Of a stretch of 64,000 nucleotides of DNA, positions 42,854-57,950 are shown piece after piece (the stretch's first letter is position 1; every line of letters begins with the position of its first letter). The notes below the pieces were generated by a model. It saw only the letters and a list, made by a program, of their open reading frames with translations, did no database searches and was not told where the DNA came from. The translations under genes and the position numbers were made by a program. Source of the DNA: Oligoflexales bacterium (GTDB lineage Bacteria; Bdellovibrionota_B; Oligoflexia; Oligoflexales; RGVZ01). The stretch is from the NCBI GenBank assembly GCA_947494335.1, contig CANLUT010000001.1, positions 663,649-727,648 of the forward strand, given 5' to 3'.

Positions 42854-43480
42854 TCAGATTTTTTTACAGCCAGGAATGCGCAGTTTCTTCCCTGATCGGG
42901 AGATGTTGATCTTAAGTAAATTATTGCCGTTAGATGATAATGCAGCAAAGGCGCATCTCAAGGGTTTTCTGCGAAAACCATCTAGGCCTTTCCATCGTAA
43001 CTCCAGGGAATGTGTCCCCGGTGTTAAATCGTCAATTCGGAGAGGCGGAGGCCCTGACGCCAAACCACCGTCGACCACTAGAGTAAAACTCTCCATTAAG
43101 TCGTCACTGGCAGTGATTTCAGTCTCAATCAGACTCTCTTCTTTTAGCTCTAGTTCCGCTTTGACGGCGGGTGCATTACCAGGGTTCACCATCAGTCTGG
43201 ATGTGTGCGTGGCGTAGCCGGGGCGCTCGATGCTTATTTTGTATTGTCCCGCGGGTAGGTAAATGGTTGCAGGAGATTGAATCCAGCCAGATTCAGATTC
43301 CCGTGATGTCCAAACTTCATTATCGATGCTGATTTTGACGCGTTCCGGCTCAGTTTGAATATTAACGGCAACGCCTGATTTGGCTGAAAGCTGCACCGAT
43401 CCGCTAACCATCAAGGAGTTGAGTGTCCAGACCGCAACGTTCAGAAGCAAAAGAGTGACAGTCAAGAGGATCGTCTTCAT
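42854..43480 (-). CDS. PEGA-domain exported protein
   Basis: A 208-residue protein with an N-terminal hydrophobic anchor or signal (ILLTVTLLLLNVAVWTL). Two PEGA-like modules are visible: residues 42-110 (EPERVKISIDNEVWTS, LPAGQYKISIERPGY) and 115-180 (SFTLVVDGG, LTPGTHSLELRW). These beta-sandwich modules often follow bacterial Ser/Thr kinases. Its ATG overlaps the kinase stop (ATGA), so translation is coupled and it likely works with that kinase at the membrane. Confidence 0.75.
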   Translation of the reverse strand: MKTILLTVTLLLLNVAVWTLNSLMVSGSVQLSAKSGVAVNIQTEPERVKISIDNEVWTSRESESGWIQSPATIYLPAGQYKISIERPGYATHTSRLMVNPGNAPAVKAELELKEESLIETEITASDDLMESFTLVVDGGLASGPPPLRIDDLTPGTHSLELRWKGLDGFRRKPLRCAFAALSSNGNNLLKINISRSGKKLRIPGCKKI

Positions 43481-45324
43481 TGTCGATCATCCTTCTTCTG
43501 TTGGCCTACGATCTCGCAGCCTTTTTTTGTCCCATCGATGACGATCAGAAGCGGACGACGTTCGCTGGTGTTAGTGGGTGTAAACGAGCAGCGTGATATT
43601 ATTTTCTTCTCTGATGAGATCACGGCAATGTTGGCATTTTCTCCGCTTGGGAGATCAGGTACTTGGAAGATATTTTGCTGTTGGGTGAACTTTTGGCGAT
43701 AAAATCCGCTGTTAACGGTTATCGTTACAGGATCCGTTCCACGATATTCAAGGCGAACTGGTGCAAAAGTTGCATTTGGCTTCAGTTTCACAGTCGGGTG
43801 AGATTTTGGAATGCCACTATCGGTATTTACAAGAATTTTCTCGCTATCGTATCCGTCTCTACTGAACTCAACACTATTCAACCCAGGATCAAGTCGGATG
43901 CGAGCTGGGGTTGCTACATATTTTCCATTGGCATGGTCTCTTTCGTTTATTTTGATGCGCACAATTTCGGGTGACGACTTTACTGTCAAGGTCAAAGCCT
44001 GGCGGGCGGCGTTCTGATAATTTTTAAAGGCGACAGCACAAGCCAGAAGAAGGACCATAGCTGCTGGTATAAATGGAAACGACGAGCCAGGCTTGCGACC
44101 GGATTTTTGCTGCATTCGTTGTTGTTCGTACTGTTTATTTTGGACGGCCCTGTGAGCTGATGTTCCGCGAAAGCCAGGCAACGATTGTGGGTTTTGACTT
44201 GCAAGAACACTGGTTGGTGGCCGCGTAGCGCGGCCGATCGTCAGAGTTGATGTGCTTTGGTTACCTGAATCCAATGCCAATTCAAGAGATGTGCGACTTG
44301 GAGGGGCGCCAGGGCCGGATTCGGACGCCTTTAATTTTGCTGAAGTCAGAATTTTGCGCATTTCTTCCCGTGCGGCATCCCGTCGATCCGATAAAACGTC
44401 CTTAACGAATAACGAAACCTCATTGGCGCTTAAGGTCGCATTCAGTTTGGCCAGAAATCCGCGCAGCGTTCGTTCAAAGATTTCCATCGATTCATATCGT
44501 CGACGCGGATCCTTTGCCAATCCGCGAAGTACAATGGTTTCTAGCTCCTCGGTGATACTTGGATTGATATCGCGCATGCGAATCGGTATTTTGCAGTTTC
44601 GCACCATCTCAATGACTTCAAATTCATTGTCCGATGTAAACATGCGATGCATTGTCAACATTTCCCACAAGACAATACTCAGTGCAAAAATATCGGTACG
44701 GGCATCGCATTTCTTGCCGCTGATTTGTTCTGGGCTCATGTAAGAATATTTGCCCTTGACGATCCCGGCCTTCGTCTCAGTTTGCTTGAAATCACGGTCT
44801 GCTGCAGCAATACCAAAGTCAGTGATTTTGACTTCGCCTTCCCATGAAATCAGAATATTTTGAGGTGATATATCGCGGTGGACAATATTCAGAGGCTTTC
44901 CAGTGACATCATCACGACGTGTATGCGCGTAATGGAGTCCCCGAGCTGCTTCTGCAACGATGTAAACACAAAGCTCGGCGGGTAGGTGGGGTCGTTTACC
45001 TGGGGACATTTTGCGGTTTTCTGTTGCGGCAAGGACCGCGCGCAGATCAGAGCCATCTATGAACTCCATAATGATCGAGGGTGAGCCTTCGATCATGTCA
45101 AAGCCCTCGACTTTCACGATATTCGCGTGTTGCAGTCGCTGCCCAATATGGGCCTCGTCCCTGAACATTTCTGCGAATTCGGCGTTTTGTGCATGATGAG
45201 GAAGGATGCGCTTAATGGCAACCAAACGCTGGAAGCCGTCTTGACCAACATGCAGGCCGCGGTAAATTTCCGCCATACCTCCACGCGCAACCACGCTCCC
45301 TAGGATGTAAGGTTTGATTGTCAT
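43477..45324 (-). CDS. Ser/Thr protein kinase with transmembrane helix and PEGA-like tail
   Basis: About 615 residues. The Hanks-type kinase domain fills residues 1-300: glycine loop VVARGGMAEIYRG, ATP Lys in AIKRILPHH, catalytic loop IVHRDISPQNILI, DFG in ITDFGIAAADR and YMSPEQISGKKCDARTDIFAL. A Ser/Thr/Arg-rich linker leads to one transmembrane helix near 415 (FIPAAMVLLLACAVAF), then periplasmic beta modules including a PEGA unit (SSPEIVRIKINERDH, LDPGLNSVEFSRDGYDS). The start at ATG 45324 is preferred over the TTG at 45345. It forms an overlapping pair with the PEGA protein. Confidence 0.85.
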   Translation of the reverse strand: MTIKPYILGSVVARGGMAEIYRGLHVGQDGFQRLVAIKRILPHHAQNAEFAEMFRDEAHIGQRLQHANIVKVEGFDMIEGSPSIIMEFIDGSDLRAVLAATENRKMSPGKRPHLPAELCVYIVAEAARGLHYAHTRRDDVTGKPLNIVHRDISPQNILISWEGEVKITDFGIAAADRDFKQTETKAGIVKGKYSYMSPEQISGKKCDARTDIFALSIVLWEMLTMHRMFTSDNEFEVIEMVRNCKIPIRMRDINPSITEELETIVLRGLAKDPRRRYESMEIFERTLRGFLAKLNATLSANEVSLFVKDVLSDRRDAAREEMRKILTSAKLKASESGPGAPPSRTSLELALDSGNQSTSTLTIGRATRPPTSVLASQNPQSLPGFRGTSAHRAVQNKQYEQQRMQQKSGRKPGSSFPFIPAAMVLLLACAVAFKNYQNAARQALTLTVKSSPEIVRIKINERDHANGKYVATPARIRLDPGLNSVEFSRDGYDSEKILVNTDSGIPKSHPTVKLKPNATFAPVRLEYRGTDPVTITVNSGFYRQKFTQQQNIFQVPDLPSGENANIAVISSEKKIISRCSFTPTNTSERRPLLIVIDGTKKGCEIVGQQKKDDRQ

Positions 45325-45392
45325 CGTAGCTTGAGTGTCTCCCAAATAAGACGGTCTTTTTCGTAGCTTGGAACCCAGCGAGCCCTTTCAGG

Positions 45393-48940: not shown

Positions 48941-49022
48941 CTATCGATTAATTATCAAACATATTCGACCGATAGCTAAGACGCAGAGAAAACGTTTTTT
49001 AGCGTCTATGCACGGAGTTAGA

Positions 49023-51461
49023 TTGAGTTACCGCAAGCAACACGTCAAAACGCATCATAATTTGTGGGTCAGATCTTTGGCCGCAATGGTTGCGCTCGTG
49101 TTTTCAGTGCAAGTAGTTGCTCAGCAGGCAGGTGTTGGTTCAGCATTGATCTCGCGTCAGGATAAATTAGAACTGACAGAGTTCTATGGAAACATGCTGC
49201 GTCAAAAGCTGAAAAGTGAATTGAAGCTGAGAGGAATTAACGACGCAGATGCATCGGTGAATTTATCGATTCAATTTGATGAAAAGAAGGCGCAAGCTGA
49301 TTCTGACTCCTGGAAGCAATCACAGAATGATGCCCTGGGAAAAGAGCGTCAAACTTTGGACGAGACCTTCCGTAAGAACATTACGGATATGTTGAAAAAC
49401 TTCAATGATGAGCAATCGAAAAAAGAGCAGCAAACTCGTCAGGAATATGAAGCGCGGGTCAAAAAGCTTTATGACGAGTACGTTCAGAAAATAAATGACG
49501 ACTACAATAAACGACTGAGCGAAGCTGAGGCCAAAAAGCTGGCCGAGGAGCAGGCTAAGAAGCAGGCTGCAGGAGAGACCGCTGTAGCTGCAGTTGGAGG
49601 ACCACAGGAGGGTGTTCGCTTGGGTCGGCTAAATGTCGATATTGCGAACTCGACCATTAGCGAGATTATTGCTAAGGCGCAGGAATCGCAACAGGGCAAG
49701 ACCCCTACCGGGCCCTCTGCTCCGACGATCAATGTGACAACACCTCCGCAGCCTCCATTTCCACCAGCGATGCCAGCTGCGCCAGCGCCAGCTCCGGTGA
49801 CCCTGGCCATCAGTGTGCCTCCAACGCCAACTCCCGCTGCTGGAGCGTTCGTATTTAAGCCAGCAGATTATATTACGAAGATCAGCGTTGATGTGACGCT
49901 GCCGCCGGGAACACCTAAAGATTTCGCCGATGGCATGCCAGCTCTTGTATCCGAATTCCTGGAGTTTTCAACGATAGCCAAAGGTGCTAATACCACTGAC
50001 TGGGTCAAGGTCAAAGTGGCACCCGCTTTGCCGGCGCCACCTCCTCCAGCACCGCCAGAGCCTGCAACGCCAAAAACATTCTTTCAATCAATTTGGAAGC
50101 CTGACAACTCATTCATCTCGACGGTGGTCAGTGGGCTTATTCTTGGGCTGTTTGTTTTCCTGGCCATGTTCCTTGCATCCCGGGCTTTAAGTAAAGGCAT
50201 ACAAACGGCGCTCTCTGGCCTGGGCAAGGACATCGCAGCGCTGAAGCCGGCTGAAGAAGGTGGAGATGCTGGCGGCGAGGAAGCGGCACCTGAGGAGGCT
50301 TCTGCTGCTGGCGGTGGTGATGACGACGAGCAGCGCGGCAGCTTCGATCAAGCGGCCGCTGGGCAGGCTCTGACTCGAGATATGCAAAATATTCGTGTGC
50401 AGATGACGTCGCTTATTGCTGAGAATACTTTCTTGTGTGCCGAATATTTAAGTGACATGTTCTACGATGATAACGGGTTGGCCGATTTCCGGGATCTGTT
50501 GAGTTTTATGGGGTACGCCCCACTAAAACCCTCACTTGAGCAGCTGCCCCGCAACGCCGTCCAAAAACTGGAAACCTATATTGAAGAGCATCGTGAAACA
50601 CCGCCCAATATTTTGAATGGAGCCGAAATTGCTCAGCGTATGTATGGCGAGTGTATTTCAAAGGCAACCCTTCGCGATGAGACGATGAAATCTTTTGACC
50701 CCGTGCGAGCGGTGCTTATTAAATCTGAAGACGCCATCATCCAAAAGTTTCTTGTGGAGGCTGACCCAATCAGCGTAGCCGTTCTGTTGAAAACGTTGAC
50801 CGTTGAGCGAGGTAACCGCCTGATGAAGGCAATCCCTCTTGCAGTATTGAAGGATGCGGCGGCGCTCATGGATAAACCGATTGATTCACCCGATCAGGTG
50901 ATCGCTGGGATTATTACCAAGATAGAGCAGGTTGCTTCGACTGTAACGGAGAGAGCACAGGCGCAAAGACGTTTGATACTCCGACTCGTCAGAACTGTGG
51001 CGGTTGCTGACGAGAGTATGGTTTACGATCTGGTACCTCCAGAAGATTGGGACTTGAAGCGGCAGATTATGCAAACGAAGCTATTCCTGAAGGACATCGC
51101 TTATGTCCCTGGTAAAGTTATCGGTCAAGCCTTCGGTGGTTTGCCTTTGGCTCGTCGAGCTGAGGTTATGTTGATGGCTGATGAGTCTTTAAAATCAGCC
51201 ATCCAGGCAACAGTCCAAGCGGGGACGAAGAAGGCCGAAATGCTTCAGACGGAGATTGATCAGACTCAGAAGAATGCCAAAAAGATGGCTGAAATTTCAG
51301 CGCGCAAAGATGCCATTATGGAGTCGTTGTTGAATGCAGTTCGAAAACTGGTAGGCGCTGATCGTAATGTTATCGATCAAATAATTCTCGCCCAGGCGAA
51401 GGCTTTGGGAGTGCAGCCTCCCGAAGGCATCAAGGCCGAGGAAGAGCGCAAAGCATCGTAA
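49023..51461 (+). CDS. Membrane-anchored FliF/FliG-like hybrid protein
   Basis: About 812 residues. An N-terminal signal or anchor (LAAMVALVFSVQVVAQ) is followed by a long charged, probably coiled-coil region (about 60-190), a Pro/Ala-rich linker, a beta domain near 275-340 (ITKISVDVTLPPGTP, TDWVKVKV) that resembles the FliF periplasmic unit before its last helix, and a transmembrane helix near 365-390 (TVVSGLILGLFVFLAMFLAS). After an acidic linker, a helical cytoplasmic part (about 455-805) resembles FliG middle and C-terminal domains (VLLKTLTVERGNRLMKAIP, LKRQIMQTKLFLKDI, GTKKAEMLQ). The start is probably TTG 49023 after CGGAG, though ATG 49008 is in frame. It could be a rotor or switch-like partner of the MotA/MotB encoded next door. 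Homology is by eye. Confidence 0.6.
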   Translation: MSYRKQHVKTHHNLWVRSLAAMVALVFSVQVVAQQAGVGSALISRQDKLELTEFYGNMLRQKLKSELKLRGINDADASVNLSIQFDEKKAQADSDSWKQSQNDALGKERQTLDETFRKNITDMLKNFNDEQSKKEQQTRQEYEARVKKLYDEYVQKINDDYNKRLSEAEAKKLAEEQAKKQAAGETAVAAVGGPQEGVRLGRLNVDIANSTISEIIAKAQESQQGKTPTGPSAPTINVTTPPQPPFPPAMPAAPAPAPVTLAISVPPTPTPAAGAFVFKPADYITKISVDVTLPPGTPKDFADGMPALVSEFLEFSTIAKGANTTDWVKVKVAPALPAPPPPAPPEPATPKTFFQSIWKPDNSFISTVVSGLILGLFVFLAMFLASRALSKGIQTALSGLGKDIAALKPAEEGGDAGGEEAAPEEASAAGGGDDDEQRGSFDQAAAGQALTRDMQNIRVQMTSLIAENTFLCAEYLSDMFYDDNGLADFRDLLSFMGYAPLKPSLEQLPRNAVQKLETYIEEHRETPPNILNGAEIAQRMYGECISKATLRDETMKSFDPVRAVLIKSEDAIIQKFLVEADPISVAVLLKTLTVERGNRLMKAIPLAVLKDAAALMDKPIDSPDQVIAGIITKIEQVASTVTERAQAQRRLILRLVRTVAVADESMVYDLVPPEDWDLKRQIMQTKLFLKDIAYVPGKVIGQAFGGLPLARRAEVMLMADESLKSAIQATVQAGTKKAEMLQTEIDQTQKNAKKMAEISARKDAIMESLLNAVRKLVGADRNVIDQIILAQAKALGVQPPEGIKAEEERKAS

Positions 51462-51485
51462 TCAATGAATAAGAAAGAAGTCTGG

Positions 51486-52277
51486 TTAGGCGCCGACTAC
51501 GGCTTTCCAGTCAACTCGTTCGTTAGGTAACAGATATGAATTCAGCTCTTCGGCGAGAACGATAGGGTTGGTTTTAGCCGCGACAAGCTTTATGCCTTCT
51601 ACGACAATCGTGTTCTTGCGATGGATCTCTTTCGATGTTTCACTCAAATTTTCGCCGATAGGAATAACAATCAGGTTTGCAAACGCGATGCCGTAGAACG
51701 TAGCAACAAGGGCGATAGACATAGACGGGCCAATTGTTTTTTCAGCGCCCGGTTTGCCGAGGCCGCCGAGAAGGGCGATCATTCCGATTACGGCTCCCAT
51801 AAGTCCCATCGCGGGTGGGTACTTTCCCATCGATTTAAATCTTGCCGCATCATCGTTGTAGCGTTCAAAGATTGTCTCTGCACGAGCTTTAAGAATTTTT
51901 CCTAACTGTGAAGTCTCTACAACTTCATCTAGTAAGAGCTTCATTGCTTCTTTAAGAAATAGGTCTTTCTGGCTGTCTACCATAGCCTGTAATTCCGCCG
52001 ATTCGTTACGATAGGCGTCCGCGAGCTTCATCAGGTCTTTGATCACCGTCACGTAGTCTGGTTTCTTACCAAGGATTGTTCGATTCCAGAAGACCTTCAG
52101 CATCAGAAATACTCGGTCAAGCTGAAAGCTAATGGAGGTAGCGACCACCGTTCCGGCGATAACGATGACTAATCCGTGTAAGTCCAGAAATGACTTGGGG
52201 TTATCTGTAGAGGATAGCGCCGCCCAGCCAACAACGATGGCTGCGAGAATAAAGGAAATGACGACTAAAATATTCAC
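51486..52277 (-). CDS. motA: MotA-type stator protein
   Basis: A 263-residue inner-membrane protein with four helices, the proton- or sodium-channel partner of MotB. Helix 1 (ILVVISFILAAIVVGW) and helix 2 (LVIVIAGTVVATS), a cytoplasmic loop with Arg90 and nearby Glu92/Glu95 (like R90/E98 of E. coli MotA), then KYPPAMGLMGAVIGMIALLG with the conserved Pro154-Pro155 and a final helix (ALVATFYGIAFANLIVIP). The start is a GTG at 52277. It is convergent with the FliG-like gene (24 bases between stops) and divergent from the 439-residue protein gene. AglR/TolQ/ExbB relatives were considered; the MotB next door has the OmpA domain, favouring MotA. Confidence 0.85.
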   Translation of the reverse strand: MNILVVISFILAAIVVGWAALSSTDNPKSFLDLHGLVIVIAGTVVATSISFQLDRVFLMLKVFWNRTILGKKPDYVTVIKDLMKLADAYRNESAELQAMVDSQKDLFLKEAMKLLLDEVVETSQLGKILKARAETIFERYNDDAARFKSMGKYPPAMGLMGAVIGMIALLGGLGKPGAEKTIGPSMSIALVATFYGIAFANLIVIPIGENLSETSKEIHRKNTIVVEGIKLVAAKTNPIVLAEELNSYLLPNERVDWKAVVGA

Positions 52278-52314
52278 GAGTGAGCCTGCGTCCGAATGAA
52301 GTAAAATACATTCT

Positions 52315-52338
52315 ATAAATATTCTATCAGATATTTAT
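52315..52338. promoter_or_regulatory. 8-bp AT-rich inverted repeat between motA and the 439-residue gene
   Basis: ATAAATAT (52315-52322) and ATATTTAT (52331-52338) with 8 bases between, in the 228-base divergent promoter region. A shared operator controlling both directions is possible. Confidence 0.35.
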
Positions 52339-52505
52339 CGTCGCAACCCCGAGCCGGCATCTAAACCGCCAAAATTTAGGCGCAAAGCACTTATTTTTAG
52401 AAAACGCCAAACTGGGTTCATTTTATTTGATCTGAAGTGGCCTTTAGCAAAGTCAGAAATCTCCGATAACCAATCCAGGCCATTCGAATTTTTGGAGTTC
52501 AAACC

Positions 52506-53825
52506 ATGAGTTATCCATCTTCAGGACGAAGCGGATCGAAGGCGCCGGTTCTCAGTTCGGCGAGCAAGCACACTGGCACAGGGAAACCTGGCATAGTCAT
52601 TTCCGTTGCTACAGACAAGAACTCATCCAAGAAATCTGCATATGTTGGTAGCATTGGCGTAAGCGCCCGCCACATAGAAACAGCGCTTGGTACAATTGCG
52701 CCGAAAGCTGTGCTGACATTACCGCCGGTGCCCACAGCTTCGGACGAACAAAAACAAAATTACCAGTCTTCTAGATCAACTGATACGTCGCCGCGAGCGT
52801 CCTTGATCAACGTCCAGGAAGTTCTAACCGTCGGTCTGCCTGGTCTTCCCGGTATCGAAGATAATTTGACGGTGCGCCGGCGAAAACCAATGGCCATCCA
52901 GCAATTGATCCAAAATCAAGTTTTGAAAAAGCCAGGTATCAATATCGGCGACGCCGAAGGGGAGACAAGATTTTCCATTTTAGATCACTACGGCTGCCAA
53001 GAAGAGCCTCTAGATGATCTTTTGCTGGTGACATTTCACTTGTTGGTGAAAATGCCAGTGCAGGCTGCTGCGGACATGATCGTTGACATGCCAGAGTGGA
53101 TGAGGAAGAAATTTTTAAGTCGATTCAAGCTTCCTGCGCTTGTAAATGAAGTGCTGAGCACTCGTCTCGACGACTATGAACAGCCGGAAGATGATGTCGT
53201 GGCAGTCACGGCAGAAGTTGTCTGGTCAAATGCGCTAGCAGCTGGTTCGATTGCAGAGTCGGCAGCAACATTTTTCCCGCGGATTCGCAATAGTCAGTCG
53301 TCTTTAAACAGACTGAGAGTAGGCGCTTCATCGCGAAAAATTCGTTCACTGAAAGAAGTGGATGCGTTAGCAATGATACCACTCACGTTACCATCATTTA
53401 CAGATGAAGACGATATTACGGCCTCAGCAGAGGTTAATGATATGATTTCGGCCATGGAGTCCAAGCGAGTATATCAACAACATAGCGAGCAATGTGACTC
53501 CGTCGAGGATCGTGTGCAAACACTTTTTTGTAAGGTATTGGGCGGTGATGGGGATGCGAGTCACGCTCAGGCTTCGCCGCTAGCGGACGATAATGTGGAA
53601 ATAATGCCAGAGACCTCTTCGACTGAGATCACTGCTGAGAGCCATTTAACTTTCAAGTCGGGTGGTCACACATCCCTGGAATTGCCACCCATGCCAGCGG
53701 ACGTCTTAGTGCCCACTACCGGGAGACGAGCTAGCGGTAAAAACGATGAGCCCGCAGCACTGGATGACACTACGAAAAAGACGTCTTTGGTCAAGCTTGA
53801 TCAGGGAAATCTTGTGTTGCTTTGA
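52506..53825 (+). CDS. Unknown cytoplasmic protein in the motor locus
   Basis: A 439-residue protein without a signal peptide or membrane helix. The N-terminal about 110 residues and C-terminal about 110 are Ser/Thr/Pro-rich and probably disordered; the middle (about 155-240) is helical and acidic (EEPLDDLLLVTFHLLVKMP, PEWMRKKFLSRFKLPALV). No family recognised. TTGGAGTTC gives the ribosome binding site. It sits between motA and motB and should be considered part of the same system, perhaps as adaptor, regulator or clutch. Confidence 0.65.
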   Translation: MSYPSSGRSGSKAPVLSSASKHTGTGKPGIVISVATDKNSSKKSAYVGSIGVSARHIETALGTIAPKAVLTLPPVPTASDEQKQNYQSSRSTDTSPRASLINVQEVLTVGLPGLPGIEDNLTVRRRKPMAIQQLIQNQVLKKPGINIGDAEGETRFSILDHYGCQEEPLDDLLLVTFHLLVKMPVQAAADMIVDMPEWMRKKFLSRFKLPALVNEVLSTRLDDYEQPEDDVVAVTAEVVWSNALAAGSIAESAATFFPRIRNSQSSLNRLRVGASSRKIRSLKEVDALAMIPLTLPSFTDEDDITASAEVNDMISAMESKRVYQQHSEQCDSVEDRVQTLFCKVLGGDGDASHAQASPLADDNVEIMPETSSTEITAESHLTFKSGGHTSLELPPMPADVLVPTTGRRASGKNDEPAALDDTTKKTSLVKLDQGNLVLL

Positions 53826-53912
53826 TGACCGGCATTAATCGCTAGGCAATTTGTTCCTCTATAGATGGCCATGACACTCTCATAAAATATGAATTGGGAG
53901 TGTCTGAAATTT

Positions 53913-54815
53913 ATGGCTAAAAAGTCTGATCATAAAAAAGATCATCATAACACGCATGGTGACCTTCATCATGATGACCATGACCAAGGTCACGGTGGTG
54001 GTGCTCATCATGGTGGTGAGCACGAAGAAGGCGAGCCATGGCTTGTGTCATATGCCGACATGATGACGCTTTTGTTCGGGTTTTTCGTCGTTATGTATTC
54101 ATTTGCTGCAAAAGATCCCAAAAATGAAGAGTGTGTCCGCCTGAAGTTGATGGAGGCGTTCAAAAAAAATGAAAGTGCTAGTGAGTCAGACGGCGCAGAA
54201 GCTAATGAGGCATCGCAGTCAGTTGCTTTCAAGGCCATTCAAATGCTGATAGCTATGATGAATGTTGATTCGGTTGAAGAAGTGCTCGAGCGCCTCGAGG
54301 AAGGGCAGAATCAGAAAAAAGCTGGCGGCGTTGGTCAGAGTGATTCTTCGAAGGATACAAAAGATAAAATGACAGTTGATGAACTGAAGGCTGTTCTTGG
54401 TGCTGACGAGATCAAGCAAACTATGAGTATTGCGCTACCTGTGGATATAGCCTTTAAGTCTGGGTCTGTGGAATTGCTCCCGGAGGCAAAAACGAGATTA
54501 GTCAAGGTGGCACAGACGGTTAATCAGATTCAAAATGCCATGTATATTAGTGTCATTGGACACACAGATGGAATTGCTCCGGCTGCTAAATCAAGGATGG
54601 ACAATTGGTCGCTTTCAGTGCTGCGTGCATCTGAGGTTGCCAAGTTTATGATGGCCCAAGGTGTTGATACAAAAAAACTACGAGTTGAGGGTCGTGGCAG
54701 TGCAGAACCTATTCTTCCAGAGAAGACGGCAGATGGTCGCCCGATTCCAGAAAATATGAAGCGAAATCGTCGCATAGAGATCGAGGTCAAGAAAGACAAA
54801 AATGTCAGACTCTGA
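53913..54815 (+). CDS. motB: MotB-type stator protein with histidine-rich N-terminus
   Basis: About 300 residues. Residues 7-37 contain eleven histidines mixed with Asp/Gly (HKKDHHNTHGDLHHDDHDQ), an unusual cytoplasmic tail. One transmembrane helix follows with the ion-binding Asp49 in SYADMMTLLFGFFVVMYSF. The periplasmic part has an acidic/Gln linker and an OmpA-like peptidoglycan-binding domain (FKSGSVELLPEAKTRL, VIGHTDGIAP, NWSLSVLRASEVAKFM, RNRRIEIEV). The start at ATG 53913 fits better than 53889, which overlaps GGGAG. Its end overlaps the phosphatase gene by 14 bases. Confidence 0.9.
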   Translation: MAKKSDHKKDHHNTHGDLHHDDHDQGHGGGAHHGGEHEEGEPWLVSYADMMTLLFGFFVVMYSFAAKDPKNEECVRLKLMEAFKKNESASESDGAEANEASQSVAFKAIQMLIAMMNVDSVEEVLERLEEGQNQKKAGGVGQSDSSKDTKDKMTVDELKAVLGADEIKQTMSIALPVDIAFKSGSVELLPEAKTRLVKVAQTVNQIQNAMYISVIGHTDGIAPAAKSRMDNWSLSVLRASEVAKFMMAQGVDTKKLRVEGRGSAEPILPEKTADGRPIPENMKRNRRIEIEVKKDKNVRL

Positions 54816-56613
54816 ATTAAATAAACAATCCAAAAAGTCCTCAGGCAAGTCGGGCCAGAGGAGATTTTCATTTCGCCCAGGTATACGCATGGTTTTATCC
54901 GCTATCTGCCTGATGGGTATACTCGGGGCGGCCGGATTTTCCGTTTATCAGTCAATGAAAACGCTCTACGAGACCAATCTTCGTGATGCGTGGACGATAC
55001 TGTTTCTAGACATGGAGACGCAGTCGCAGGCCATATCTGATAAAATGCCGCGACTGACTGCAAAAGTGACAGCTCGTCCGCCTGTTGCTGTATTTTCTGT
55101 TGTGAACACCAAAAACGTGCAGTGGGTTTCAGGGAAGTATCAGAATTTAAAAACATTTGAAAGTCTCGGCCTTGATTTTTCGTTATTTTCTCCAAGTTCA
55201 AATTTCAACGGCATTCTAACTGATGTTTCTGGAGATCTTCTTTTCGTTGTGCGTGATTTGACCGATGGTAAGGTTTCCACAATTCGTTTGTATACGGTTA
55301 CGGCTGGGGACATAAAGGGGCTTTTTAATCTGAAAAGTGAAAATACTGTCGTCTATGTTGCAAATCGTTCTGGGAAGTTGGTTTACAACAACTCGGATGT
55401 TGTGACTCCAGCTAACCTAATGACTCGGCCTCTCGTCCAATCATTCATCAAAGTGCCATTTAAACAAGGGCAAGCAGAGTTCGACCTGGAGAAAGAGTCA
55501 TTCTACGGGTTTTACCAAGAGATCAGTAAAACAAATCTCATTCTTTTCGCGGAAAAATCGAAGCGTACTGCACTATTTGGAATCTATGCAACGATCAACA
55601 AGGTAGGGAAGATTTCAGTGGCTGCCCTCGTCTTGACGTTGCTTCTTCTACAGATTCCATTATGGTTTGCGATGCGTCCGATACGGATTCTAACAGACGT
55701 AGCAACCCGTCTTTCAAAGGGTGACTTTAATGTCGCAATCCCTAAAGTAGGTTTCGGAGAGCTTGGAGTTCTGACAACTACATTTGCGGCCATGACGGAA
55801 AATCTTGTAAAGCGAGATAAAGAAATTGCTGTATTGAACGTGGCAAAGCTGGAGAAAATGAAAATGGAGCAAGGGATCAAAATGGCAAGTACCATTCAAG
55901 ATCGCTTCCTATTTAAGCCAGATGGGCGAGGGACCCATGAGTTCGATATTTCGTCAGTGTATGAACCGTCACTGCAGCTTGCAGGTGATTGGTATGGAGT
56001 TCATTTTGATGAGGAGCGTGGTGAACATATTATTGCGATTGTTGATATCACTGGGCACGGTATTGAGTCGTCTATGATGACGCCAGTGATTTCGGTCTGC
56101 TTTCAGGAACAGTTGTTCCGCAAGGGGCAAGCGATCGATATGGAGGAGTTCTTAAAACGTTGCAATGGAGCTCTCTATGGCTACGGCGCAGGGAAGTCGA
56201 CGGCGACCGGTATCATTGCCAAATGGAGTAAAGCAGACGGCAAGTTGACATGGTTAAACGCAGGTCATCCTCAGCCGGTAGCTGTGAATGCCGACGGTGT
56301 CATGATCAAGCCTAAAGGTGCTATTGGTGCAAACGGTAATATTTTAGGCATCTCGGAAGTTCTTGAAATGTCAGAGCAGTCGATTCAGCTGGGAAGTGGA
56401 GGCTTGATTGCGTTTTTTTCAGACGGTCTGATGACAGTGCAATCATCGTCTGGCAAAGGGTTTTCGCGAAAGCATTTATTCGAGTCACTAAAAGGCGCTC
56501 GCAACAAAACCGCTAAACAAGCTATGGATCATGTTCTTGGAATTTGGCGGCAGAAGAACCAGGGTGTCATCGTTGAAGATGACATGTGTCTGGTTCTTGG
56601 GGTTTTGAAATGA
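54802..56613 (+). CDS. Cache-HAMP-SpoIIE membrane phosphatase
   Basis: A 603-residue signalling protein. One helix near 30-50, a periplasmic sensory domain (about 55-265) of Cache type, a second helix near 272-295, a HAMP linker (RPIRILTDVATRLSKGDFNV), a short coiled coil and a C-terminal PP2C/SpoIIE phosphatase with LAGDWYGV near 393 and VDITGHGIESSM near 415, plus FFSDGLMTVQ. Such enzymes dephosphorylate Ser/Thr-phosphorylated anti-sigma antagonists or similar proteins. The 14-base overlap with motB makes it a likely regulator of the motor or a linked response. Confidence 0.88.
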   Translation: MSDSELNKQSKKSSGKSGQRRFSFRPGIRMVLSAICLMGILGAAGFSVYQSMKTLYETNLRDAWTILFLDMETQSQAISDKMPRLTAKVTARPPVAVFSVVNTKNVQWVSGKYQNLKTFESLGLDFSLFSPSSNFNGILTDVSGDLLFVVRDLTDGKVSTIRLYTVTAGDIKGLFNLKSENTVVYVANRSGKLVYNNSDVVTPANLMTRPLVQSFIKVPFKQGQAEFDLEKESFYGFYQEISKTNLILFAEKSKRTALFGIYATINKVGKISVAALVLTLLLLQIPLWFAMRPIRILTDVATRLSKGDFNVAIPKVGFGELGVLTTTFAAMTENLVKRDKEIAVLNVAKLEKMKMEQGIKMASTIQDRFLFKPDGRGTHEFDISSVYEPSLQLAGDWYGVHFDEERGEHIIAIVDITGHGIESSMMTPVISVCFQEQLFRKGQAIDMEEFLKRCNGALYGYGAGKSTATGIIAKWSKADGKLTWLNAGHPQPVAVNADGVMIKPKGAIGANGNILGISEVLEMSEQSIQLGSGGLIAFFSDGLMTVQSSSGKGFSRKHLFESLKGARNKTAKQAMDHVLGIWRQKNQGVIVEDDMCLVLGVLK

Positions 56614-57950
56614 CGGTTCGTCGGGGTCAATTGAGAATTCTAGTCGTATCGGCAGTGTTGTCATGGTCAGGGATTTCCGTCGCGCAAGCATTGGGTGTGA
56701 CGGCAGAACCAGGCACGGGGCCGTTAGCGGTTCAATTTAAGTTTGTAAAGGTTGAGGGCCTTATTCAGTACCAACTACCGCTTAGTGCCGAGTGGAGAAC
56801 CGCGCGCTTGGGTCGGTCGATTCCAGACGGCTCAATTCTGATGGTGCCACCCAATGCGACCGTCTCTGTCTCTGCCGATGATTCTTTGGGGCGTGAAGGC
56901 TTGGATACTAAGGTCACAAAAATCACAATTAAATCGCCAATGATTGTGCGTCTTAGTCGAAGTGCATTTAGAAAGGTGACCCTCGAGAAAGGAATGATTT
57001 CGGCGTTACCAAATGCATTGACCCTTAACGCGATAGATAAATTTAAGAAAATTAATGAGTCATTTTCCGACGCCTGGAAGAAAGAGGCGATGGGCATGTT
57101 AGCGAAAGATTGGGTGAGTGATGAGCTGTTGAAGCTCCTGTCAGATGCGTCAAAGGAGACCAAAAAAGAGGAGCCGGTTTCGGTGTCGGGATCCACTGGG
57201 AGAATAAAAATTGAAACGCCCACTAACAATCAGGTTGCGTTAGCGAGTGAAATCCCGGCTGAAATTCCATTACGATGGCAGCGCGAGGGACTTGTCGGCA
57301 AAGGTGATATCACGAACTACAATATCTACTTTTGGAAAGACGGTGAGCAAAAGATTCCTTACGCCCAGGTTATCGGCAATAAGTTGACCGTCAAGGTGAC
57401 GTCGACTGGAGCGTACAATGCGCAGGTTCAGACAATCGACGGCTCTTATAAATCCAAAGTAAAGAAGGTCAAGGTTTTTGATAAAAATTCCGAGTTAGCC
57501 GGGGGCAAAGAAACAAACGCGGTGGCTGAGTTGGATATCCCAGGGCGAGTTTTAAGTCAGCGAATTAAGGTCCGTAGTCCAGGACGAAATCTGGTTTGGT
57601 ACAGCAAGAGTGCTTGGCCGGTGATCTTGTTTGAATGGGAGCGTCCAGAGACGTGTGCCAGGGATGTCAAGTATCGCTTTATTGTCGAAAACGCCTCGGG
57701 AAAGCTTGTGTTTTCAAAAAATCTTAACGATGAGGATTTCTTCTGGGCTCCGCCACCGGAATTCGCGGGTGTATATCGGTGGCGTGTTGACGGCATCAGT
57801 TGTGCATCCCCATCAGGTGATGTTATTTCAGAGCTGACCAGCACGCCGCCAAGACGACTTTCTTTAGTGCGGCAAGACTTAAATAAATTGTTGGATTCAT
57901 CGGTCAGCCAAGGATCGTTTCGAGGTACCTTGGTCATTGATTCACTGTGA
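56610..57950 (+). CDS. Secreted FecR-like protein
   Basis: About 446 residues with a signal peptide (LRILVVSAVLSWSGISVAQA). The N-terminal domain (about 30-140) has the FecR pattern: VEGLIQYQLPLSAEWRTARLG, IPDGSILMVPPNATVSVS and KITIKSPMIVRLSRSAF. The remainder contains two beta-sandwich units (about 210-300 and 320-420; WKDGEQKIPYAQVIGN, WPVILFEWERPETC, FAGVYRWRVDG) like Ig-fold repeats. The ATG at 56610 overlaps the phosphatase stop; a GTG at 56586 is less likely. As the last gene of the run it may be an envelope sensor or scaffold linked to the phosphatase. Confidence 0.8.
   Translation: MTVRRGQLRILVVSAVLSWSGISVAQALGVTAEPGTGPLAVQFKFVKVEGLIQYQLPLSAEWRTARLGRSIPDGSILMVPPNATVSVSADDSLGREGLDTKVTKITIKSPMIVRLSRSAFRKVTLEKGMISALPNALTLNAIDKFKKINESFSDAWKKEAMGMLAKDWVSDELLKLLSDASKETKKEEPVSVSGSTGRIKIETPTNNQVALASEIPAEIPLRWQREGLVGKGDITNYNIYFWKDGEQKIPYAQVIGNKLTVKVTSTGAYNAQVQTIDGSYKSKVKKVKVFDKNSELAGGKETNAVAELDIPGRVLSQRIKVRSPGRNLVWYSKSAWPVILFEWERPETCARDVKYRFIVENASGKLVFSKNLNDEDFFWAPPPEFAGVYRWRVDGISCASPSGDVISELTSTPPRRLSLVRQDLNKLLDSSVSQGSFRGTLVIDSL

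Follow-up and report, generated by a model that had tools for sequence, protein, structure and literature searches.

The cluster described here encodes a MotA/MotB pair beside a single membrane-anchored protein whose cytoplasmic part resembles FliG, and we regard it, with moderate confidence, as an ion-driven motor made of flagellar motor parts that works outside the flagellum. Clusters of the same family are kept in some relatives that lack flagellar genes, and the motor therefore probably drives an undescribed machine of the cell envelope. The cluster lies at positions 49008-57950 of the window (the whole 64-kb stretch of DNA that was analysed) and comprises six genes:

49008-51461, plus strand: anchored FliG-like hybrid, 817 residues, with a signal segment, an RBM3-like domain carrying an insert, a transmembrane helix and a FliG-like domain
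51486-52277, minus strand: MotA, 263 residues (Pfam MotA_ExbB, E 1e-20)
52506-53825, plus strand: 439-residue protein of no assigned family, with a 509-residue counterpart in locus L027 and a possible 299-residue counterpart in locus L028
53889-54815, plus strand: MotB with plug and OmpA-like peptidoglycan-binding domain (Pfam MotB_plug, E 1e-15; OmpA, E 2e-16)
54802-56613, plus strand: membrane HAMP-SpoIIE (PP2C) phosphatase with a weak Cache match (Pfam SpoIIE, E 5e-26; HAMP, E 7e-7)
56586-57950, plus strand: secreted FecR/Fn3-like protein (Pfam fn3 only, E 0.008)

All six genes claimed by the initial annotation are present, as open reading frames and, for MotA, MotB, HAMP and SpoIIE, as Pfam matches. 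Some of its details had to be amended: the frame of the hybrid begins at 49008 rather than 49023, the Cache match of the phosphatase (E 0.019) falls short of the Pfam cut-off, and Pfam makes no FecR call on the secreted protein, whose FecR-like pattern returns at the equivalent place in other clusters. The phosphatase gene does overlap motB (by 14 bases) and is itself overlapped by the FecR-like gene (by 28 bases). Of the six genes, motA alone runs on the minus strand, its 3' end facing that of the hybrid gene. MotB probably starts at its second methionine (53913), by comparison with its relative in L027. The housekeeping genes tmk, holB, PSP1 and a Mpo1-like gene lie upstream of the cluster and a hybrid histidine kinase gene lies downstream; as first proposed, there is no rod, ring, export or filament gene among those annotated at about 39.5-63.6 kb of the window. 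This interval also holds, at 42854-45345 on the minus strand, a Ser/Thr protein kinase gene adjoining one for a small secreted-looking protein, whose counterpart in L027 has PEGA-like stretches.

Hydropathy shows a hydrophobic segment at the N-terminus of the hybrid protein and, beyond it, a single transmembrane segment; the chain can be divided as follows:

49155-50018, plus strand: periplasmic part, residues 50-337, helix-strand-[insert]-strand-helix-strand (AlphaFold model, medium confidence; aligned with relatives)
49281-49559, plus strand: inserted long helix, residues 92-184 (AlphaFold model)
50109-50195, plus strand: transmembrane helix, residues about 368-396 (hydropathy, AlphaFold model)
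50385-51407, plus strand: FliG-like cytoplasmic domain, residues 460-800, pLDDT about 90 (model, profile alignment)
51222-51254, plus strand: residues 739-749 (GTKKAEMLQTE), which the alignment places opposite the FliG torque helix

Pfam and NCBIfam call neither FliG nor FliF on the window hybrid alone, and profile and fold methods were therefore needed. A profile of four family members searched against PDB sequences matches the FliG C-terminal domain (1qc7, E 4e-4), and a profile of five members compared with the canonical FliG of the same phylum gives a probability of 96.1 (E 3.3e-9), with residues 519-767 of the hybrid collinear with residues 64-311 of FliG. Reversed profiles reach a probability of just 0.2-0.5 and a MotA profile 0.8; the reversed-profile controls rule out chance helical similarity as the source of the match. 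The AlphaFold model built from 27 sequences (pLDDT 73 overall, against 64 for an earlier model from five) retrieves FliG chains as its top 13 PDB matches in Foldseek (best E 3.6e-4, probability 1.00), and both models give the same FliG matches. Its overall pTM is low (0.36), which flexible linkage of the domains may explain. The chain includes a proline-rich linker. The profile comparison and the model thus support a FliG M/C fold from the transmembrane helix onward, as the initial annotation had claimed, and structure prediction did not yield the outcome, a protein lacking a FliG-like fold, that would have told against it. Within the torque-helix segment, G739 and E749 are invariant in five hybrids, and the basic residues and E749 fall, in the alignment, at the R281 and D288/D289 region of FliG. 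The hybrid differs from FliG in its build, being a chain of 817 residues with a signal segment and a transmembrane helix where FliG is a separate soluble protein of about 330, and it differs in its motifs: the FliM-binding EHPQ occurs in 0/52 hybrids and in 28/30 canonical FliG, and a FliM/FliN switch is therefore not expected. Hybrids also tend to end in [A/S/V][A/S] (38/52, including the window protein, ...ERKAS, 51453-51458; 10.7% of other frames), whereas the C-termini of canonical FliG are mostly [Y/L/F]V.

The assignment of the periplasmic part to FliF is weaker than that of the cytoplasmic part to FliG. In FliF, RBM3 is a ring-building motif split by an insert that follows the first strand and precedes the second (PMC4768692), and the modelled periplasmic part of the hybrid may have this split topology. 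Likeness to FliF is not demonstrable for the window protein by sequence, Pfam and NCBIfam included, and FliF appears at rank 14 of the Foldseek matches (probability 0.33). Relatives carry more of the signal. A profile from the periplasmic part of 12 of them matches FliF in the PDB weakly (E 0.28), across both RBM3 halves and including the RGD stretch, and one hybrid from outside the phylum (L147), the only relative to do so, gives Pfam YscJ_FliF_C at the curated cut-off, followed by FliG_M and FliG_C. Between residue 40 and the transmembrane helix there is neither a match to RBM1 or RBM2 nor room for more than one RBM and its insert. The initial idea of FliF joined to FliG thus holds well for FliG, whereas for FliF it draws on modelled topology and on relatives, and is weak for the window member alone.

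MotA and MotB, with the plug and the peptidoglycan-binding domain of the latter, qualify by their sequences as a flagellar-type stator, and MotA scores far better against flagellar models (E 1e-36) than against TolQ (E 4e-4). The aspartate D57 in the SYAD motif of MotB is expected to bind the ion. Taking the E. coli residues R90 and E98 as reference (PMC12505986), the arginine of AYRNE in MotA aligns with R90 and is kept in all five window-type sequences, and the glutamate equivalent to E98 is not kept in these five, as judged by alignment. In a MotA tree (with row L164 set aside, since its ORF was miscalled at the edge of a contig), the MotAs of each hybrid type form one clade (support 100/99 for the window type), apart from flagellar MotA (100/100), and the S-type group is sister to the window-type group (92/92). 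Such separate clades are as expected if stators are dedicated to their hybrids.

The locus is no isolated oddity: it forms one branch of a diverse family, and such gene sets do recur outside flagellar clusters. A FliG_C search over the phylum found that most genomes hold a canonical FliG (330-370 aa) and at least one long frame of 550-1000 aa. We took 40 regions for inspection, and in most of them the encoded protein runs from a signal segment through an RBM3-like domain and a transmembrane helix to a FliG-like domain. The resulting family of anchored FliG proteins counts 46 loci in the phylum and a few outside, and we divided it into the window type and types S, T, U and V (our own labels). 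Over the stretch from the transmembrane helix to the C-terminus, the window type can be aligned with the S/T set (E 2.7e-20). The window type occurs in 5/58 genomes of the phylum, three of which have named records (an Oligoflexia bacterium, an uncultured proteobacterium and a MAG under the name Pseudobacteriovorax antillogorgiicola), and was not found among about 325 genomes sampled outside; many of the surveyed genomes are drafts or MAGs, where the absence of a gene is only as sure as the completeness. The co-occurrence that the initial annotation had put forward for checking holds throughout: the hybrid, motA and motB are linked in all five window-type genomes, down to 26% identity, so their grouping exceeds chance. 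Gene order is less constant, motA being inverted in three of these genomes and all genes codirectional in the other two.

MotA lies within 6.5 kb of the hybrid in 5/5 window-type loci, 10/12 of type S, 8/8 of type T and 4/4 of type U, i.e. in 27/29 loci of types other than V. Among V hybrids it does so in 5/5 loci of family f13 and in 0/12 elsewhere, where the hybrid is solitary. A SpoIIE phosphatase is a recurring companion in clusters of the window, S and T types and is missing from many of types U and V. In relatives, a PEGA-like TPR lipoprotein and a small barrel adjoin many hybrids; neither gene adjoins the cluster in this window. The lipoprotein profile also detects a gene beside hybrids outside the phylum (L145 and L146, in G100 and G246; E about 1e-21), where the lipoprotein, the hybrid and small barrel-like frames follow in a row, and no MotAB is seen in the stretch. 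Two other loci from outside the phylum (L147 and L148, in G129 and G271) encode, one after another, a hybrid with TPRs at its C-terminus, a protein some 1300 residues long, MotA and MotB; a barrel-like frame precedes the hybrid in L148, and the stretch of L147 starts at the hybrid.

FlhA was not found in 11/58 genomes of the phylum, and two draft genomes of high completeness (G009, 93%; G024, 96%) miss FlhA, canonical FliG and flagellar-type MotA alike and still keep hybrid, MotA and MotB together (L075 and L076), the cluster of G024 being of type S. No hybrid cluster was seen inside a flagellar operon or among flagellar genes in the relatives examined, an arrangement that would have spoken against the initial proposal. 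A part of the flagellum should be encoded with flagellar genes and be missing where those are missing, and the family, through G009 and G024, does neither. The claim of a stand-alone motor therefore stands for the family and not for the source cell, whose genome encodes a flagellum (FlhA, two FliG and a FlbD-linked MotAB) to which the cluster may be accessory. The two FliG genes of the source genome are of canonical length (L018:8548-9564 and L019:7826-8818), with no other evident flagellar gene next to either. Two genomes lacking FlhA encode FliG-like proteins some 330 residues long (L112:8631-9623 in G025, L113:7314-8300 in G026), and no MotA was seen beside them.

The most serious rival is an accessory flagellar set, in which an extra stator pair and an added membrane ring would alter the torque of the cell's flagellum, for which the E-ring protein FlgY, with its ARM-like domain, offers a comparison. 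All five window-type genomes carry flagellar genes, which suits this explanation and counts against ours, although it says little because most of the phylum has them, and ARM-like domains do build flagellar scaffolds (PMC11870540). We nevertheless find it unlikely, since sister-type clusters survive in genomes without FlhA, FliG and flagellar MotA, the clusters never lie among flagellar genes, their partners include an outer-membrane lipoprotein and a barrel, and the hybrids have no FliM motif. The same outer-membrane neighbours, along with the long periplasmic helix and the proline-rich linker, would fit a machine in which MotAB acts as an energiser in the manner of TolQR or ExbBD and pulls the hybrid as a trans-envelope lever, maintaining or remodelling the outer membrane without a rotor. 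This is less probable still, because MotA is of flagellar type by its scores and the domain that would receive the force is FliG-like and cytoplasmic.

Two further readings have little to recommend them. MotAB and the hybrid could form a sensor of load at the surface or of contact with the wall that signals to the SpoIIE phosphatase and does no useful work; the coupling of a phosphatase with HAMP and a periplasmic domain to motB in the window, and the phosphatases of S- and T-type clusters, speak for it. But with so many U and V clusters devoid of a phosphatase, and a complete stator with a peptidoglycan anchor being costly for sensing, we consider it improbable. A phage defence system like Zorya, which uses MotAB-type proteins, is suggested by the match of MotB to ZorB models (E 1e-12), which any MotB may give; MotA does not match ZorA and the other Zorya genes are absent, and we rejected this candidate as very improbable.

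A non-switching, stand-alone MotAB motor acting across the envelope is the most likely explanation. From the alignment we infer that MotA5B2 units, fixed to the wall through MotB, would turn and push the FliG-like domain of the hybrids, which may form a ring or track joined through their RBM3-like domains. The initial annotation proposed a single anchored protein as the stator target: one chain does hold a transmembrane helix and a FliG-like domain, and its being driven by MotA belongs to the conditional part of the model. Because the FliG-like part is held by its own transmembrane helix, motion would pass straight across the membrane to the periplasmic part, and from there to the FecR/Fn3-like protein and to outer-membrane partners such as the TPR lipoprotein and the small barrel, whose genes adjoin that of the hybrid in most relatives. 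Lacking a FliM/FliN switch, the motor would turn in a single direction and be controlled by starting and stopping, probably through the SpoIIE phosphatase, which might alternatively set expression, in response to an outside signal. Its likeliest use, gliding over surfaces or moving outer-membrane components, is the least certain step and we put it forward as a doubtful one; the roles that the initial annotation suggested (gliding, polarity, envelope transport or predation) are conjecture. Several observations weigh against the model besides the flagellar genes of the window-type genomes: the FliF-like part is weak by sequence in the window hybrid, window-type MotA does not conserve the E98 position, the window cluster has neither the lipoprotein nor the barrel at its side, and the absences in G009 and G024 rest on the completeness of drafts.

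Each part belongs to a known kind; what is new is how they are arranged. The cluster shares with the flagellar motor (MotAB, FliG and the FliF MS-ring) the architecture of MotA and MotB and the FliG M and C fold, and may also share an RBM3-like domain ahead of the transmembrane helix. It differs in its single fused chain, which has neither RBM1/2 nor the motif for binding FliM, in lacking export, rod and filament genes, and in occurring in genomes devoid of flagellar markers. A naturally fused FliF-FliG protein is itself not wholly without precedent, since the Chlamydiaceae have one; but that protein, of about 330 residues with the RBM2 region and FliG M only, has been discussed in relation to the injectisome (PMC4768692), and no paired MotAB has been reported for it. 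Artificial fusions in Salmonella and Vibrio likewise join the FliF transmembrane helix directly to FliG and still rotate, but were engineered and act within the flagellum. The Agl-Glt gliding machine of Myxococcus also ties a stator-type proton motor to envelope and outer-membrane parts, although its AglRQS belongs to the TolQR-like group (PMC12505986). E-ring FlgY and MgtE_N have an ARM-like helical motif in common with FliG, but lack the FliG C-terminal domain, and FlgY is a flagellar ring protein (PMC11870540). A literature search confined largely to journals outside subscription turned up no naturally occurring FliF-FliG fusion with a MotAB of its own, which does not prove that none exists.

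A broader claim, which we advance as a conjecture falling slightly short of even chances, is that several bacterial lineages hold a kind of rotary machine spanning the envelope that is so far undescribed. In it, MotAB would drive a self-anchored FliF(RBM3)-FliG ring coupled to outer-membrane lipoproteins and barrels. Such a machine could be the gliding motor that is still missing for Bdellovibrionota-like bacteria, or be similar to the module out of which the flagellar motor was built. Flagellar-type stators have been described as one group distinct from their non-flagellar relatives (PMC12505986), a rule that would fail if MotAB pairs had fused rotors of their own and persisted in genomes devoid of flagellar markers. 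If real, such a motor would bear on the modular assembly of the flagellar motor and offer a minimal rotor in which torque transfer can be studied without switch or export gear. It would also be a candidate for the gliding motor of Bdellovibrionota, whose identification is called a major open challenge in a 2026 review that lists AglRQS and GldLM as motors and makes no mention of FliG (PMC13104615).

The source genome holds other parts of this kind. It encodes a second anchored hybrid, a solitary V type of 793 residues (L013:6429-8810, i.e. C1:58428-60809; FliG_C, E 3e-10), with no adjoining MotAB and no BLASTP match to the window hybrid. Its likely partner, judged by the MotA tree, is a MotAB pair elsewhere in the genome (L014, 6944-8439), whose MotA groups with those of V-type clusters (98/100). 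A further divergent MotAB pair lies on contig C3 (L015:7301-13118), followed by a frame of 1428 residues.
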